Of a DNA stretch of 25,313 nucleotides, positions 15,920-25,226 are shown piece by piece. Both the position numbers and the translations under genes were made by a program. A model generated the notes under the pieces. It worked only from the letters and a program-made list of their open reading frames with translations, searched no databases and was not told the DNA's origin. Every line of letters starts with the position of its first letter. Position 1 is the first letter of the stretch. Source of the stretch: a virus; IMG/VR virus record IMGVR_UViG_3300048921_000065, positions 1-25,313 of that record. One strand, given 5' to 3'.

Positions 15920-18900
15920 TTGTTCATTCGGCTTGTTCTCTTCCTCAATTTCTTCCTCGTTGCGAGCGTTGCCCACGCCGATCCGATCTCCGCGATCGGG
16001 CTGGTCGTTTCAGGCGTCCAGGCGCTCGCCAGCGGCGCATCTGTTCTCGGTCTCATTGTAAGAGCAGCCTTGGGCCTTGGCCTCAGCCTGCTTCAGCAAA
16101 CGCTCAACAGACAGAAAAACAAGCAATCCAGTGTCGGCTCCGTCCTTGAAATCAAGATGGGCGACGACCAGCCGATGACGTTCCCTGTGGGATCACGCGC
16201 AGTCGGCGGCCGGCGCAAGTATATCGGCTCCTGGGGCAAGGCCGGTGGCACGCCCAACGCCTATCTGACGGACGTCATCGAGATCAGCAATCTGCCGTCC
16301 TATGCCGGGCCGCTCGGCATGAGCAGCCTATGGGTTGGCCAGAAGAAATGCGGCGTCCTTTTTGATCGGCCACACCCGGACGGCCGGGGCTATCCGGTGC
16401 AGCAGCTTATCCACCCGGACGGCACGGAGTTCATGTGGATCAAGTATTACGATGGCACGCAAACGGAGGCCGATCCGTTCCTAGTTTCCAAGTTCGGCAG
16501 TCATCCCGATCGGCCCTATGGTGCTGATCGTATCGGCCGAGGCTGCCAGTATGTCATCGTCACGACGCGCCTGGATAACGACCTGCAGCTTGGCGGCAGC
16601 CCGCCAGAAATCCTTGTCGAGCCGCATCCGACGCCCTTCTACGATCCGCGTAAGGACAGCACCAACGGCGGCAATGGCAGTCATCGCTTCGGCGACTGGA
16701 CCACATACGAGCCGACACTCAACCCGATGGTCATCGCCTACAACATCGTTCGCGGCGTCTACTATACGCCAGACGAATGGGTGTTTGGCGGCCAGAACGT
16801 TGCCGCAAGCCGCTTGCCCAATTCGGCATGGTTCGCCGCCATGAACGAGTGCGATCGCGACGGGCAATATCGTTGCGGTCTTGAAGTCCAGTGCGATCAG
16901 GAACCGCTCGACGTTATCGAGGATCTGCGCGTGGCTTGCGCCGGCAGGCTCGCGGAAGTCGGCGGGATGATCAAGCCGCTTGTAGGTGCGCCGGGTGCTG
17001 CGATCTATGCCTTCGATGACACTGGGATCATCATCACCGACGAACAGGATTTCGAGCCGTTCCCGTCGCTGACCTCGACCCACAACAGTATCGCCGGCAC
17101 CTATCCGGAACCGGAGCAGCGCTGGACCGTCACCGACGCTCCGGAGGCGCGCAATCTCGATCAGGAAGCACAGGACGGTCAGCGATCGCTGCCGGCTCCC
17201 GTTAGATTTGACGCCGTACCCTTTTCGGATCAGGTCCAGCACTTGATGAAAACGATGGCGGCTGAGCAGCGGCGCTTCCGCATCCATACGCTGACGCTGC
17301 CACCGAGCGCCTACGCGCTGGAGCCGAACGATGTCACGTCCTGGACATCGGCCCGCAATGTCTACGGCAATAAGAAGTTCATCGTGACGGCGATCACCGG
17401 TCTGGCGGGCATGCTGCAGCGGGTGACCCTGCTGGAAATCGACCCGACCGATTACGATCCACCGACCGTCTACGTTCCCGCGCCGAATGGCTGGATCGGG
17501 CCGATTACCGCGCCGTCGCAGCCGATGACCGGTTGGACGGTCGAGCCGGCCACCATCAAGGACGCGGGCGGCATCGATCGCCGGCCGGCAATCAAGATCA
17601 GTTGCGCGCAGGATCTCGAAGATGTGGCGGGCGTATGGGTGCAGGTGCGTGTCAAGGCGACCGGCGACGTGGTCTTCGATAGCGACAGCAACCAGTACGC
17701 CTCTCCTTATTCATGGATCATCTCCGGGAACTGGATGATCGCGAATACCGACTATGAGGCGCGTGGCCGCTATCTTCCGAAGTCGAACCGGGCAACGGAC
17801 TGGTCGGCATGGCTGACCGTCAGGACGCCAAACGTCCTCATCCAGGCCAGCGACGTGCTGGACGGCGCTATCATCGCCTCGAAGATTGCTGACGCTGCTG
17901 TGACGGCCGCAAAAATCATGGACGAGGCCGTCAGCAATCTGAAGCTTGCCGATCAGGCCGTTTCGACGGCCAAGCTGCAGGTCGCAGCCGTCACGGCCGA
18001 CGTGCTGGCGAGCGGCGCGGTGATCTCCATGAAGCTTGCCGATGGTGCGGTGACGGCCGCCAAGCTCGCCCAGGGCGCGGTGGACGCGACAAGCCTTGCC
18101 AGCAGCATCAAGGCCGTCGAAGTCGTCTCGGCTCTTCCCACCTCGGGTAATGTCGAAGGCCGGCAGGTTTTCCTGACGACGGATGGCAAGCTCTATCGCT
18201 ACCATAGCGGCGCTTGGACCACCGCCGTTCCATCGACTGACATTACCGGGCAACTGGTATCGTCACAGATAGCCAATGGGGCGATTGCCAACCAGCAACT
18301 CGCGGCCCTGGCGATCGACGCCAGTAAGATAGCCAACAATGCGATTACGACGACGAAGATCGCCGATGATGCGATTTCGACCTCGAAATTGCAGGCGAAC
18401 TCAGTCGTCGCGGCCAACATCGCAGCCAACGCCATCACCGCCCGGAACCTCGTTCTGCAGGATTGGGAAAACCTCATTCCTGACAATCAGATGCAGTCCT
18501 CAGCTGCATGGCCGCTCTTGTCGGCCTGCGTCATCAAGCCTGCCGCCACGCTGCCGTTCGCGTCTAAGGGTTCGCTCGATTACACCTATGCCGCTGGCAC
18601 GGGCTACCAGCATATCGTCATTGGTCCCGCCTTCGCGATCGTTCCCGGACAGCAGTATTTGGCGTCTGTGCAGGTTGCCCGCACCGCCGGCACCAAAGCT
18701 GGCTTCTGGGTTCGCGTTCACTGGCTGGATTCAAGCGGCGCGTTGCTGAACCCGGATCAATGGGGAGACATTGTCGGCGTCAACGGCGTAACGCCGCCCT
18801 TGAATGAGGTGCAGACCTACTCGAACACAATCACGCCGCCGACAGGTGCCTTCGGCGCACGTGTTCAAATGTATATCCAGCGCGATTATACCGATGGCAA

Positions 18901-21001
18901 CCTCTCGATCGGTGGCCTCAGCTGCCTGCGAAGAGCTTCAGCCAGCCTGATCGTTGACGGAGCAATCATCGCAGGCAAGATCGCCGCCAATGCCGTGACT
19001 GCCGGAACCTTAGCGGCCAACGCCGTGACTGCGGGCACGATCGCCGCTGGCGCGGTATCTGCCGCCCAGATCGCAGCCGGTGCCATCACGGCCGACAAGC
19101 TTGCCTCCAGCTCGATCACCACGAACGCCCTGGCGGTCGGTTCGGGCAAGAACCTGTTGCAGAACGCCAGCTTCACGATGGGAATGGATTGCTGGACTTA
19201 CGCAGCCAGCGGCCCGATACCGGGGCTCACAATGGCGATTCGGCCGCCAACTGAGCCGTGGGCTGGACCGAACAACCCGACGCTGATGCTGTATCAGGCC
19301 AGCGGTCCAACGGCGGCCGGCTATTTCGCCGATATTCGCTGGATGCGCCCCGACAGCGATCGATTTGCCGGGCAGCTCAAATTCGCCTTTCCCTGCGCAC
19401 CGGGCGAATGGTTTGAGGCAACGGCTTATGTCTCAGCGCATCGTTGCCAGGTCGAGTTGCGTATCGAGTGGGAGGGAGCGGACGGCAACTGGATTGGTTA
19501 CACCGCTGCAGCCATCAACAACGCCAATGCGTGGGATGGGAACAACCCGGACAATTGGCCGCGCTTGAGGGTGGCGGGAGCAGCGCCGGCGAACGCGGTC
19601 GCCGCATCGATCCATATTCGCAAAGGCGACTCTAAGGCCAACGCTACCGATAGCTACGCCTTCATCAACAAGCCGATGCTGTGCCGCGTCCCGGCCGGTG
19701 CTACCGAGCCGACGCCCTGGAGCGATGGCGGGGTGGTCATGATCACCAATGGCGGCATTGTCGCCAATGCCATCTCGGCCGACAAGATCGCCGCGAACGC
19801 TGTGACGGCCGGTAAGGTCGCCGCCAATGCGGTCACGGCCGGCACGATCGCAGCCGGTGCGGTCACTGCCACGACGATCGCGGGCGGCACGATCACCGGC
19901 GACAAGCTGGCGGCCAACACGATCGGCGCTGGACAGATCGCAGCAGATGCGATCACCGCCAAACAGCTCGTGCTCACCGACTTCTCCAATATGGCCGACA
20001 ACGGTTGGCAGGCCGGATCGCTCGACGGCTGGGTGACGCAAAATGTGCAGAACTTCTACAATGATAATAGCGCTGGCGATGCGGCCGGCTTTGTCCTTCA
20101 AACACTTGGTCGCGACTGCGCGCGGTCTAATTTTGTCGCGGTCACGGCTGGCGAGGTCTATGCCTTCGACGTTTGGGTTTACAATACGGACCCAAACAGG
20201 GCGAACATTCTTGCGGCCTCAATGACGCCATCCGGAAGCGTGAGCTATCCGGGTGTCGTCGGTACGGATGTGAAGAATGGTTGGACACGACTGCAAGGGA
20301 AATACACCGTCCCCAGCGGGGTGACGGAACTTGCCATGCATCTTCAGGTCAACAAGACGGCAGGCACCGGCAGCTCCTGCTACTGGTCGAAGCCGGTTAT
20401 GCGCCGCGCCGTCTCGGCCGAGCTGATCGTTGATGGTGCCGTGACCGCGAATAAGATCTCGGTCAACAGCCTCGACGCCATCACCGCCAATCTCGGCGCG
20501 GTCAATATCAGCTCGGCCGTCATCGGCTCGCTACAGGTCGGCACGTCCAATATTCAGGGTGGCGCTGTTACGGGAGTGGGCGCTGGGCGTGTCGCCGGCA
20601 CCCAGACCATCGGCGCAAACGGCACGGCCAATCTGGTGAGCTGCGTCGTCAATGTTGCTGGCGATGGCCGCGTGGTGATCGATGCCATGACACTCGGCCA
20701 ATTCAACCAGAATGGCGGTAGCCAGAACTCGCAGCCGATCGGCTGCAACATCTTCCGCGACGGGACGGCGATCTTTTCGCAGACCTATTATCTCGGCGTG
20801 GTCCAAACCGTCGTTACTGGCACAGGTGGCAGCAACGGCGGCACCACACAGGCCACCTATACGGCCGGGCTCGTGGCTGTCTCAGGTCTCTATGACGCTC
20901 CCGGCCCAGGCAACCACACCTACATCCTGCAGATCTATTGCCCCGGCAACACCATCGGCTGGAACGAAAGCAACATCACCGCCACAGCTCTCAAGAGGTA
21001 A
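15920..21001 (+). CDS. Tail tip attachment / fibre protein (J-like), 1693 residues
   Basis: This protein should form the tail tip and receptor-binding fibre. Residues 1-22 (FIRLVLFLNFFLVASVAHAD) look like a cleavable Sec signal peptide, unusual for a virion part, and a second hydrophobic stretch follows at 40-60. Residues 60-430 match the J-type core. From about 647 the chain is built of decapeptide-like repeats (SKIADAAVTAAKI type) at about 647-732, 774-843, 1011-1072, 1274-1352 and 1497-1520. Between them lie a tip motif with LPTSGNVEGRQVFLTTDGKL and three domains of beta-sandwich, sugar-binding type (ENLIPDNQMQSS, GKNLLQNASFTMGMDCW, FSNMADNGWQAGSLDGW). A closing domain holds SLQVGTSNIQ. 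It starts with TTG, with AAGG upstream. Confidence 0.82.
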   Translation: MFIRLVLFLNFFLVASVAHADPISAIGLVVSGVQALASGASVLGLIVRAALGLGLSLLQQTLNRQKNKQSSVGSVLEIKMGDDQPMTFPVGSRAVGGRRKYIGSWGKAGGTPNAYLTDVIEISNLPSYAGPLGMSSLWVGQKKCGVLFDRPHPDGRGYPVQQLIHPDGTEFMWIKYYDGTQTEADPFLVSKFGSHPDRPYGADRIGRGCQYVIVTTRLDNDLQLGGSPPEILVEPHPTPFYDPRKDSTNGGNGSHRFGDWTTYEPTLNPMVIAYNIVRGVYYTPDEWVFGGQNVAASRLPNSAWFAAMNECDRDGQYRCGLEVQCDQEPLDVIEDLRVACAGRLAEVGGMIKPLVGAPGAAIYAFDDTGIIITDEQDFEPFPSLTSTHNSIAGTYPEPEQRWTVTDAPEARNLDQEAQDGQRSLPAPVRFDAVPFSDQVQHLMKTMAAEQRRFRIHTLTLPPSAYALEPNDVTSWTSARNVYGNKKFIVTAITGLAGMLQRVTLLEIDPTDYDPPTVYVPAPNGWIGPITAPSQPMTGWTVEPATIKDAGGIDRRPAIKISCAQDLEDVAGVWVQVRVKATGDVVFDSDSNQYASPYSWIISGNWMIANTDYEARGRYLPKSNRATDWSAWLTVRTPNVLIQASDVLDGAIIASKIADAAVTAAKIMDEAVSNLKLADQAVSTAKLQVAAVTADVLASGAVISMKLADGAVTAAKLAQGAVDATSLASSIKAVEVVSALPTSGNVEGRQVFLTTDGKLYRYHSGAWTTAVPSTDITGQLVSSQIANGAIANQQLAALAIDASKIANNAITTTKIADDAISTSKLQANSVVAANIAANAITARNLVLQDWENLIPDNQMQSSAAWPLLSACVIKPAATLPFASKGSLDYTYAAGTGYQHIVIGPAFAIVPGQQYLASVQVARTAGTKAGFWVRVHWLDSSGALLNPDQWGDIVGVNGVTPPLNEVQTYSNTITPPTGAFGARVQMYIQRDYTDGNLSIGGLSCLRRASASLIVDGAIIAGKIAANAVTAGTLAANAVTAGTIAAGAVSAAQIAAGAITADKLASSSITTNALAVGSGKNLLQNASFTMGMDCWTYAASGPIPGLTMAIRPPTEPWAGPNNPTLMLYQASGPTAAGYFADIRWMRPDSDRFAGQLKFAFPCAPGEWFEATAYVSAHRCQVELRIEWEGADGNWIGYTAAAINNANAWDGNNPDNWPRLRVAGAAPANAVAASIHIRKGDSKANATDSYAFINKPMLCRVPAGATEPTPWSDGGVVMITNGGIVANAISADKIAANAVTAGKVAANAVTAGTIAAGAVTATTIAGGTITGDKLAANTIGAGQIAADAITAKQLVLTDFSNMADNGWQAGSLDGWVTQNVQNFYNDNSAGDAAGFVLQTLGRDCARSNFVAVTAGEVYAFDVWVYNTDPNRANILAASMTPSGSVSYPGVVGTDVKNGWTRLQGKYTVPSGVTELAMHLQVNKTAGTGSSCYWSKPVMRRAVSAELIVDGAVTANKISVNSLDAITANLGAVNISSAVIGSLQVGTSNIQGGAVTGVGAGRVAGTQTIGANGTANLVSCVVNVAGDGRVVIDAMTLGQFNQNGGSQNSQPIGCNIFRDGTAIFSQTYYLGVVQTVVTGTGGSNGGTTQATYTAGLVAVSGLYDAPGPGNHTYILQIYCPGNTIGWNESNITATALKR

Positions 21002-21437: not shown

Positions 21438-21855
21438 TCCGCAAGCCGATCTCACCCTAGAACGCATCCAGGCCCAGGCCGACATTGATCATCAGGTCAG
21501 TGCGGCTCGTGCTCTCTTCATCACGCTCTCACCCGGTCAGGAAGCAGTCTATGCCGTGAAGCTCGCCGAAGCGAAGCTGATCGCGGCCGATTGGCGCCAC
21601 GCTGCAAACGGTGCGAACGTGCCCGACGCCGAAACGCCGCACATCACGGCTGAAGCTGCCGAGTACGGCGTTAGCCGCTTCGAAAAGGCCGCTGAAATTC
21701 TAACTCGCGATCAGCACTGGAAGGTCGGATCGCAGATGATCGAAAGCCGCCGCCGATCGGCAAAGGCGGCGCTCGCAGCCGCATCCACAGCCCTAGAGAT
21801 CCGCGCCGCAGCCGCTATCGATTGGCGGGACGTGCGCGCTTATGCCCAAACCTAA
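21427..21855 (+). CDS. Tail-fibre-associated helical protein, 142 residues
   Basis: The product is mostly helical: LERIQAQADIDHQVSAAR, FITLSPGQEAVYAVKLAEA, a proline-containing middle and a long C-terminal helix with IESRRRSAKAALAAASTALE. The SPGQ-xxY-xxKxxEA pattern is known from small proteins beside tail fibre genes in transposable phages. A GAGGTGA binding site lies seven bases upstream of ATG 21427. It overlaps the preceding gene by 11 bases. Function unknown; a fibre chaperone is the best guess. Confidence 0.6.
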   Translation: MLFNPQADLTLERIQAQADIDHQVSAARALFITLSPGQEAVYAVKLAEAKLIAADWRHAANGANVPDAETPHITAEAAEYGVSRFEKAAEILTRDQHWKVGSQMIESRRRSAKAALAAASTALEIRAAAAIDWRDVRAYAQT

Positions 21856-21871
21856 GCAAAAAGGACTTCCC

Positions 21872-22525
21872 ATGTACCGCATTGACAGCATGTATGAACC
21901 GATGGTCGAGGCACTGCTTTCGGCTCGCTCGGAAAGCCGGGCCGATCGCTGGATGGCCTGCGTCGCCTTCTGGCTCGGCCGGCAGCAGATTTATAACGTG
22001 CCGGACTACTGGCTTGCACTTGCCGCGAAGATTACCTCCGGACTGGATGCCGCCGATAAGAACGCTATCCTCGATCAACTGAGCAACAAGGAAGCCGCCC
22101 TGGTCAGCGCGGCCGGCGATTGGCCGGAAATGCCGTCGAGCCTTCAAGCCGTTGTTGCCGGCTGGTCTCCGGAACCGATCCCTGTCGATCTCTACGCCTA
22201 TGCGGCGACCAAGCGCTATGCCGTCGAAACGGGCGGCATCGTCATCGACACTATGCGCGTCATGACCGATCGCCAGAGCCAATCGCTGATCACTGGAGCC
22301 TACAACTATGTGCAGGCAAATCCGGAGGTGACAGTGAAGTTCAAGACGGCGGCCGGCTTTGTCGAGCTGACGGCGGCACAGATGACGGCTATCGCCAATA
22401 CGGTCGGCGCTCATGTCCAGTCAGCTTTTGCGGCCGAAGGCGAGATCAACCAGCAGATTATCGCCGGCACCATCACTACGCCGGCCGAGATCGACGCATT
22501 CGCGTGGCCGACGAACGCCGGCTGA
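21872..22525 (+). CDS. DUF4376-type tail fibre accessory protein, 217 residues
   Basis: The C-terminal half shows the DUF4376 pattern: ATKRYAVETGGIVIDTMRV, TDRQSQSLITGAYNYV, TVKFKTAAGFVELTAAQM and IANTVGAHVQSAFAAEGEIN, ending in AEIDAFAWP. DUF4376 proteins sit next to phage tail fibre genes and are thought to aid fibre assembly. The N-terminal half (YRIDSMYEPMVEALLSAR) is not recognised. I chose ATG 21872, which has AAGGA six bases upstream; an in-frame ATG at 21842 without a binding site would overlap the previous gene. Confidence 0.75.
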   Translation: MYRIDSMYEPMVEALLSARSESRADRWMACVAFWLGRQQIYNVPDYWLALAAKITSGLDAADKNAILDQLSNKEAALVSAAGDWPEMPSSLQAVVAGWSPEPIPVDLYAYAATKRYAVETGGIVIDTMRVMTDRQSQSLITGAYNYVQANPEVTVKFKTAAGFVELTAAQMTAIANTVGAHVQSAFAAEGEINQQIIAGTITTPAEIDAFAWPTNAG

Positions 22526-22553
22526 TCCGCTCCAAGACGAATAGGAAAGAGTC

Positions 22554-22901
22554 ATGAACCGCAGAAACTTTCTTCGCTTCCTAGCCGCAGCTCCTGTGAT
22601 CGCAGCAGCGCCTGCCGCGATGGCAAAGGCGGCTTCTCCGAACGCCACGCTTCAGTGCGTTATAGATGAAAACCGGGCCATTGGTTATTTCCCGTTGACC
22701 GTAACTGGTGCGATTACCGCTGATCGGATCGCGCCTTCCGCGATCACGGCGGACAAGCTCGCGGTCGGCAGCATCACGGCATATCGGATCGCAGCCAAAA
22801 GCTTCGTCGCAGGTCCCACGACGCTCGAAATAGTCGACATCCGCTCCGGCACGATTGGAGTTCTGCCAGTCGGACGCTCCAACATCGCAGCCTTCAACTG
22901 A
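22554..22901 (+). CDS. Small Tat-signal protein carrying tail-fibre repeats
   Basis: The 115-residue product begins NRRNFLRFLAAAP, a twin-arginine motif, followed by a hydrophobic segment and an AMA/AKA cleavage site: a Tat-type export signal. The mature part contains decapeptide-like repeats GAITADRIAPSAITADKLAV that match those in the tail tip protein, and ends VDIRSGTIGVLPVGRSNIA, which lines up with VNISSAVIGSLQVGTSNIQ at residues 1528-1546 of the tip protein. A binding site (AGGA, 22543-22546) is well placed. It may be exported by the lysogen to compete for or mask the phage receptor, or be a fibre part; both are inference. Confidence 0.7.
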   Translation: MNRRNFLRFLAAAPVIAAAPAAMAKAASPNATLQCVIDENRAIGYFPLTVTGAITADRIAPSAITADKLAVGSITAYRIAAKSFVAGPTTLEIVDIRSGTIGVLPVGRSNIAAFN

Positions 22902-22914
22902 AAGGAAAATCACG

Positions 22915-23154
22915 ATGTCCACACATGCGAATTCGCTCAAGAAGCAGGTCGAACTGCTGCAGAACGAAGTCGAGCTCTATGCCAACGCGGTCGATCATCT
23001 TGCGAACGAGTTGACCGAGGCGCGCAAGCAGCTGCAAGCGCTGCGGCCAGCCGAGGTCGACGGTGCATCGATGGTGCCAGCCAGAGGAAATGATGAGGAC
23101 GCGTCTGCCCCCGCTCACAAGCCGGGTGTCGCGTCCAACGGAGGGGGCGCGTAA
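22915..23154 (+). CDS. Small coiled-coil protein, 79 residues
   Basis: The ATG at 22915 has AAAGGA eight bases upstream, and follows the Tat-protein gene by 13 bases. Residues 8-45 form a heptad-rich helix (LKKQVELLQNEVELYANAV) and the C-terminus is disordered with EDASAPAHKPG. No family is recognised. Such short coiled coils occur near tail and lysis genes; nothing more specific can be said. The stop overlaps the next ORF by one base (TAATG). Confidence 0.55.
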   Translation: MSTHANSLKKQVELLQNEVELYANAVDHLANELTEARKQLQALRPAEVDGASMVPARGNDEDASAPAHKPGVASNGGGA

Positions 23155-23321
23155 TGAAGACTATGGCGACAACCAAATACAGCCAGTTGCTACGCGATGC
23201 GGCCGGCTATCCGAAAATTCTAACGCCCAAAGAGGCGGAGCATCTGCGCGAGCAGATGAGAGAGTTTCTTGAGCTGCCTCCCGGTAGGATCATCGGGGTC
23301 CCAGCGTTGCTAAATCGATAG
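23154..23321 (+). CDS. Small helical protein, 55 residues
   Basis: An ATG overlaps the previous stop (TAATG) and opens 55 codons: MKTMATTKYSQLLRDAAGYP, then a helix EAEHLREQMREFLEL and a hydrophobic end (IIGVPALLNR). The tight coupling suggests it is translated. The last 32 bases overlap the end of the minus-strand protease, so the two genes converge. Family not recognised. Confidence 0.5.
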   Translation: MKTMATTKYSQLLRDAAGYPKILTPKEAEHLREQMREFLELPPGRIIGVPALLNR

Positions 23322-23754
23322 CGAAAGTTGGGCGCTGAGCGTCGCGAACGTCATATACCAAACGACCATATTGCAGGAATTGCCGACCGAGGATCGCATC
23401 AAAACCGTTACCCTGCGCGCGCACATCCAGGGCGCAGACCTCGGTCGCCCATTGCAGACCGAGAGACGGCAGTGAAATCGTCATTTGATGCACCGTGCTG
23501 GACACGCCATTTGCCACCACGTTTCTCACCGGCGGGGATTTGAGAAAGGTGAGAAGGTCTCGGTCGAGATATAGATAGTCCGCGCCGGTATCAATGAGGG
23601 CTCGTACCGCTGCACCAGCCGGAGCACCGGCAATGCCAGTCATGAATGTGATGTCCAAACAGGGGGAGCCGCGAACATGGTCGTCGGTTTCGCTTCCGCC
23701 CGGTTCTATGAACATGATTGGGAGGGTCACTGTTTTCCGGTCAACGCCAGCCAT
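23290..23754 (-). CDS. Retropepsin-like (clan AA) aspartic protease, 154 residues
   Basis: The minus-strand product contains the active-site motif ALIDTGADYLYLD with D55-T-G, then a strand TVHQMTISLPSLGL and the second conserved element FDAILGRQFL. This is the retroviral-type single-domain aspartic protease fold, which acts as a dimer. There is no signal peptide. A GGGGAG lies nine bases before the start. It is the only convincing minus-strand gene in the phage region and is not part of the late operon, so it may be a cargo (moron) gene or mark host DNA. Its substrate is unknown. Confidence 0.72.
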   Translation of the reverse strand: MAGVDRKTVTLPIMFIEPGGSETDDHVRGSPCLDITFMTGIAGAPAGAAVRALIDTGADYLYLDRDLLTFLKSPPVRNVVANGVSSTVHQMTISLPSLGLQWATEVCALDVRAQGNGFDAILGRQFLQYGRLVYDVRDAQRPTFAIDLATLGPR

Positions 23755-24028: not shown

Positions 24029-24072
24029 CGCCATTTGATGTTGCGCGCTGTGCCAAACGATTTTGCGCGCTA
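24029..24072 (+). repeat. Two abutting 22-bp repeats: candidate transposase-binding sites at the prophage right end
   Basis: Units at 24029-24050 and 24051-24072 agree at 16 of 22 positions by eye and share TTGCGCGCT. Mu-type phage ends carry abutting 22-bp transposase sites, and from the right the sequence reads TGTGTAGCGCGCAAAATCG, starting with TG as phage and transposon ends do. This would put the phage right end near 24074-24076. The left end is outside the window, so it cannot be matched here. The remaining 23994-24108 sequence holds nothing else I can name. Confidence 0.4.
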
Positions 24073-24108
24073 CACAAAGCCCTATTCGATCGTGACCAGT
24101 TTGCCATC

Positions 24109-24303
24109 ATGGCGGATCGTCTCGGCAGGCTGCGAGGGCGCTTCATTATGTCCATCAACGACGAGCCAGAAATCCGTGAGTTGTTCAGCGGATGTCTAAT
24201 TGAACCCATCGAATTGGCCTATTCAGTGTCAAGAGGAAAAGGTACGACAGCGAGAGAACTTATCATCAAAGGTTGTGCAAAATCTTGTCAGACGAAGACC
24301 TAG
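24109..24303 (+). CDS. Small ORF of unknown function (64 residues)
   Basis: ATG 24109 opens 64 codons; an inner ATG at 24148 with GAGG ten bases upstream would give 51 residues beginning SINDEPEIRELFSGC. The product ends in a lysine-rich tail. It overlaps the next gene's open frame in a different phase by 31 bases. No family is recognised and it may not be expressed. Confidence 0.3.
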   Translation: MADRLGRLRGRFIMSINDEPEIRELFSGCLIEPIELAYSVSRGKGTTARELIIKGCAKSCQTKT

Positions 24304-25118: not shown

Positions 25119-25152
25119 CGGCTGGTGCGCAAACTAAAAATTCCGGAACCGC

Positions 25153-25226
25153 GTGTCAAAATTCCGGAAAGTCGCGTCCGGCTACACCCGTGTCAAAATT
25201 CCGGGAAGTCGCGTCCGGCTACACCC
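25153..25226 (+). repeat. Two 37-bp tandem repeats (IS21-like or other transposon end)
   Basis: Units 25153-25189 and 25190-25226 differ at one base (GGAAAG against GGGAAG). A shorter third copy of AAAATTCCGGAA lies just upstream (25136-25147). Read from the right, each unit begins TGTAGCCGGACGCGACTT and ends in TTTTGACAC. IS21-family ends carry such repeated transposase sites, so this may be a solo IS end. No transposase is in the window. The other sequence in 25119-25253 is non-coding. Confidence 0.55.

Follow-up and report, generated by a model that had tools for sequence, protein, structure and literature searches.

The late tail operon and the right end of the window

The window, i.e. 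the whole stretch of 25,313 nt that was analysed, is a fragment that starts just before the portal gene, and its head, tail and fibre genes all lie on the + strand. The capsid protein matches Pseudomonas B3-like phages at 45–47% over its whole length (among the 20 of 48 records listed), while the DUF935-type portal has matches of 33–42% in B3-like and RcapMu-like phages. Judged by these two proteins, the window, a rhizobial prophage, may be placed among the Mu-like (B3-type) transposable siphophages. It encodes a gpJ-type central tail fibre of 1693 aa (phrog_5616; nt 15920–21001, + strand) with a signal-peptide-like N-terminus and, further along the late tail operon, a small gene (nt 22554–22901, + strand) that combines a twin-arginine (Tat) leader with a fragment of fibre stalk and neck.

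The small gene appears in the list of open reading frames with an ATG start and a product of 115 aa (MNRRNFLRFLAAAPVIAAAPAAMAKAASPNATLQCVIDENRAIGYFPLTVTGAITADRIAPSAITADKLAVGSITAYRIAAKSFVAGPTTLEIVDIRSGTIGVLPVGRSNIAAFN). It lies 28 bases 3' of a DUF4376 tail gene (phrog_10508; nt 21842–22525, + strand) and 13 bases 5' of a coiled-coil-type gene (nt 22915–23154, + strand), and has a Shine-Dalgarno-like sequence, AGGAAAG (nt 22543–22549, + strand), four bases 5' of its ATG. Under a codon-usage model trained on four phage genes its frame is clearly preferred (+18.7 vs –8.5 to –70.7 in the other five frames); the G+C content at third positions is 0.63, compared with 0.71–0.82 in the four training genes. 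A sigma-70 scan returned no promoter-like site nearby. At the level of sequence, its status as a real gene is confirmed.

In many relatives the coiled-coil gene directly follows the DUF4376 gene, with a gap within about 10 bases. The earlier note had proposed looking in other prophages for the same pairing of small gene and fibre, but the small gene is absent after the DUF4376 gene in all 24 related records inspected (18 recognised via the DUF4376 gene, four via its alignment, L045–L048, and two via the coiled-coil gene, L199 and L200). The nearest relative, L050 (the same record as L011), is 97% identical to the window over the first 560 residues of the fibre, and homology between the two ends at nt 22519. 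Further downstream is a remnant of a Dam-type methylase (nt 24076–24279, + strand), corresponding to the last 68 of the 269 residues of the complete gene in L011, and a GH19-type lysin, which 17 of the 23 loci of relatives (from 22 records) carry, was not found in the window (both gene names are presumed). The break in homology, the cut-down Dam gene and the lack of a GH19-type lysin together indicate that the small gene sits in a variable, partly decayed right end.

Several other features were seen in this region. Two 20-base repeats, 80% alike and 22 bases apart (nt 24030–24071), are spaced in a way that might fit transposase sites at the right end of a Mu-like phage. Near the right end there are two tandem 37-base copies, 97% alike (nt 25152–25225), and after them a sequence resembling the 3' portion of a tRNA gene, for which ARAGORN made no call. 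Beside the tail operon, on the – strand, lies a Clan AA aspartic-protease-like gene (nt 23290–23754; TIGR03698, E 0.00013, under the cut-off).

The twin-arginine leader

In the classical layout of Tat leaders, a motif of the RRNFLR type comes first, then a core of weak hydrophobicity and lastly an AxA-type site such as AMA. Residues 1–24 of the small protein (MNRRNFLRFLAAAPVIAAAPAAMA; nt 22554–22625, + strand) show this layout, with the motif RRxFL[K/R] present as RRNFLR at residues 3–8, a weakly hydrophobic core (FLAAAPVIAAAPAAMA; mean hydropathy 1.9) and an AMA site, after which the leader is likely to be cut (between MNRRNFLRFLAAAPVIAAAPAAMA and the K that follows). The twin-arginine signal described in the earlier note is therefore present, and among the 135 ORFs of the window the small gene alone passed a Tat-leader rule, which was also passed by 14 of 9650 ORFs of related loci. 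As a yardstick, the same rule accepted three of five E. coli proteins that we take to be Tat substrates (MsrP among them) and none of four other proteins.

Scores against curated profiles were lower than their cut-offs, which are thresholds of the tools and no property of Tat substrates themselves. The NCBIfam profile TAT_signal_seq (TIGR01409) gave the small protein 13.9 bits (cut-off 16.7), a value between the lowest and highest scores of the E. coli Tat set (12.7–31.6 bits), and matched none of the four non-Tat proteins. With the Pfam profile TAT_signal (PF10518) the first 60 aa scored 8.6 bits (cut-off 22.7), and four of the five E. coli Tat proteins also fell below this cut-off, one of them without any match; MsrP was below the cut-off in both profiles. 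Identification of a Tat leader is credible, albeit without support from a curated cut-off, and export of the small protein, as judged from this leader, is rather probable. A weak match to TIGR02811 (formate_TAT; E 0.0008, under the cut-off) covers the leader and linker, but the small gene has no formate dehydrogenase context and the remainder of its product is fibre stalk.

Other small genes with Tat-like leaders, and without fibre repeats, occur in two related phage contigs (L052, nt ~1547–2297; L111, nt ~19327–19644).

The fibre-derived body and the main fibre

The body of the small protein is colinear with the stalk repeats and neck of gpJ-type central fibres. Residues 48–87 (GAITADRIAPSAITADKLAVGSITAYRIA; nt 22695–22814, + strand) correspond to the repeats, and score 81 against the fibre of the window, compared with a shuffle maximum of 60 that leaves the observed score unreached in 500 shuffles, in agreement with the fibre-type repeats noticed earlier. 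Residues 88–111 (nt 22815–22886, + strand) form the neck element, which ends in IGVLPVGRSNI, with the stop codon four residues further on. The margin is narrow for residues 88–115 (score 47, shuffle maximum 45, 0/500 shuffles reaching it). The shared IGxLxVGxSNI element, also proposed in the earlier note, is borne out by identity at 8 of 11 positions with IGSLQVGTSNI of the fibre. The leader region has no similarity to the fibre, its score being reached by 396 of 500 shuffles.

The best match of the small protein is not the fibre encoded in the same window but that of another phage, L114 (49% over residues 53–111, 59 residues, gapless). At the DNA level, the small gene and the neck of its own fibre (nt 20417–20566, + strand) share 79 of 150 bases, with third codon positions the poorest (19/50, vs 30/50 at both first and second positions). 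The low identity and the poor third positions indicate that the two diverged long ago and are not the result of a recent duplication; the latter also indicate that the sequence of the small protein was constrained for at least part of the time of divergence. This protein-level constraint could perhaps date from a time when the fragment was still inside a full fibre. Residues that are invariant among fibres are retained at 10 of 13 sites in columns 26–46 of the neck and at 5 of 13 in columns 1–25. By these comparisons, the small gene is shown to join a Tat leader to a fragment of gpJ-type stalk repeats and neck, and not to be a recent copy of its own fibre; known parts are thus combined in a new chimera. 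AlphaFold gave a poor model of the complete small protein (mean pLDDT 56.6), so that both its fold and its trimeric state are inferred here.

No whole-gene homologue of the small gene emerged from the searches made. Neither the whole protein nor its mature part found a stand-alone homologue in IMG/VR, and in genomes the only match was the repeat stretch of a Cohnella protein; these searches used 8-residue patterns, which detect near relatives only, while an alignment search yielded 73 loci. The small protein matched 27 phage records (best, the J protein of a Paracoccus phage) and seven plasmid records, none of them over 80% of the query, and its N-terminal 48 residues had no match among phages. 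When the small protein and its last 31 residues were compared by tblastn with all the loci collected, 7 of 1158 HSPs fell in frames of less than 400 codons. Two of these were the window itself, one was a frame of 104 codons in L182 (E 3.7e-5) without a leader, and four were weak (E 0.16–0.98). No Tat-exported fibre fragment is described in the open-access literature searched.

The gpJ-type central fibres (phrog_5616; lambda gpJ, PDB 8xcj/8xck) share with the small protein the stalk repeats of ITADKLA type and the neck that immediately precedes the tip, and lambda gpJ is among the top Foldseek matches of the C-terminal part of the window fibre. They differ in size (1693 aa in the window vs 115 aa), and the small protein has a Tat leader and no hub domains or tip. 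It matches the fibre in the repeats and the neck only, lacking the hub and FNIII-type N-terminal region as well as the receptor-binding C-terminal tip. The description of the small protein as a miniature of the tail fibre thus holds for stalk and neck, and fails for hub and tip. The first 560 residues of the window fibre had no match among PDB sequences at E 0.01.

The pattern IG.L.[VI][GAND].[SAT]NI was found in 16 of 87 loci, including the window, many of the others being different fibres or ending before that region. In 14 of the 16 the neck, AELIVDG...SNI, is near-constant, while the sequence beyond it varies in kind among phages, as would be expected if the tip is exchangeable. The small protein ends four residues past SNI, where the tip begins in these 14 aligned fibres. 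In the window the tip (nt 20567–20998, + strand), a part that the small gene lacks, is predicted to fold as a beta jelly roll, with a mean pLDDT of 81.5, and with Foldseek the model matched TNF/C1q-like and lectin folds, the lambda gpJ–LamB complex being second in the list; in a second structural comparison gpJ was absent among the 50 matches listed. A stalk and neck without a tip make it unlikely that the small protein alone blocks a receptor.

The main fibres themselves carry signal-like N-termini. In the gpJ-type fibres related to that of the window (nt 15920–16120 of the window; L051–L113), the N-terminus resembles a signal peptide (for example, ...SVAHA followed by DPISA), and a second hydrophobic, glycine-rich stretch comes after it. 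A lenient rule found such a terminus in 60 of 60 loci evaluated and the motif [AVSTGL]xA[DEGA]P in 42 of 60, compared with 41 of 527 control ORFs in either case; the count omits three of 63 loci, includes several near-duplicates and considered as many as six alternative starts for each ORF. RRNFLR of the small gene is absent from the fibre N-termini listed. Since the main fibres are signal-like at the N-terminus, a leader on a fibre protein is no proof of export. These N-termini also raise the question of whether signal peptidase processes the tail-tip protein, either in assembly or on entry.

Origin and possible role of the small gene

The interpretation preferred here, held with about even confidence, is that the small gene is a chimeric accessory gene of a single lineage, carried by a Mu-like rhizobial prophage among its late tail genes, and that its product is probably exported by Tat and acts at most as a stalk partner. 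As a monomer the fragment would not fold by itself, and it would form a homotrimeric stalk, which Tat would deliver in folded form to the periplasm at a late stage of the lytic programme. Any action would be by stalk–stalk contact, joining or capping fibre trimers, rather than by gripping a receptor, and the most likely outcome would be a stalk fragment in the periplasm whose function is minor or absent. It is possible that the small protein is an exported assembly part, as the earlier note suggested, though relatives that have a full fibre do without the small gene.

A tentative alternative, which we regard as rather unlikely, is that the gene is a by-product of recombination, in which shuffling of fibre modules at the neck and decay of the right end left an open frame made up of a host Tat leader and a piece of fibre, maybe expressed but without a selected role. 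Its presence in one prophage only among the records searched, the break in homology to the nearest relative at nt 22519, the truncated Dam gene and the lack of a GH19-type lysin would all agree with such an origin. However, the frame is intact, a good ribosome site precedes it, its codon usage resembles that of phage genes, and the core residues of the neck have been retained. The other explanations assign the leader or the fibre fragment a more specific task. Superinfection exclusion, in which an exported fibre fragment at the periplasm or surface would stop incoming phages of the same kind, was the role originally proposed, and combines the export-type leader with the homology to the fibre. 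There is precedent for a periplasmic phage protein that shuts a receptor, namely Llp with FhuA (PMC9586334). The exclusion lipoproteins (T5 Llp; Cor) resemble the small protein in being small, phage-coded and equipped with an export signal, but theirs is a lipoprotein signal, whereas the small protein has a Tat leader and derives from a fibre stalk. Its only cysteine, residue 35 in TLQC, lies past the AMA site, and neither a lipobox nor another outer-membrane anchor was seen by eye. As the receptor-binding, exchangeable tip is missing, the gene lies in a late tail operon with no promoter-like site nearby in the sigma-70 scan and is absent at this junction from all 24 related records, the proposed block of the receptor is not upheld, and we consider exclusion improbable.

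If the small protein did act on other phages, its target might be the fibre instead of the receptor: a tip-less stalk sent by Tat to the periplasm could jam the fibre stalks of incoming or competing phages, or the passage of the fibre through the membrane, by strand exchange. Binding of LamB in lambda is accompanied by a rearrangement of the straight part of the fibre that lies above the tip (PMC11101478), and by analogy a fragment made up of stalk alone could, in principle, disturb a fibre, but this activity seems very unlikely. The hydrophobic N-terminus might alternatively act within the tail tip or membrane as part of the virion or its assembly and not as an export signal. In the RcGTA megatron, a tail-tip protein of an alphaproteobacterial particle that likewise has a hydrophobic N-terminus, residues 1–46 form an iris thought to insert into a membrane (PMC7296036), and by analogy this iris may correspond to the N-termini of the gpJ-type fibres described above, whose signal-like character (60/60 by the lenient rule and 42/60 by motif, vs 41/527 controls) would favour such a role. 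The RcGTA N-terminus is, however, part of the virion protein itself, and the passages of PMC7296036 on this iris mention no twin arginines. RRNFLR fits a Tat leader and is unseen in the listed fibre N-termini, and relatives build their tails without the small gene, so a virion role is given a low probability.

If the preferred chimeric accessory protein is both exported and selected, it would represent a reuse of tail-fibre modules as secreted proteins, and for a part that becomes a folded trimer while still in the cytoplasm Tat would be the natural way out. Even as a by-product of recombination, the gene would illustrate cleanly how fibre modules are shuffled at the neck.
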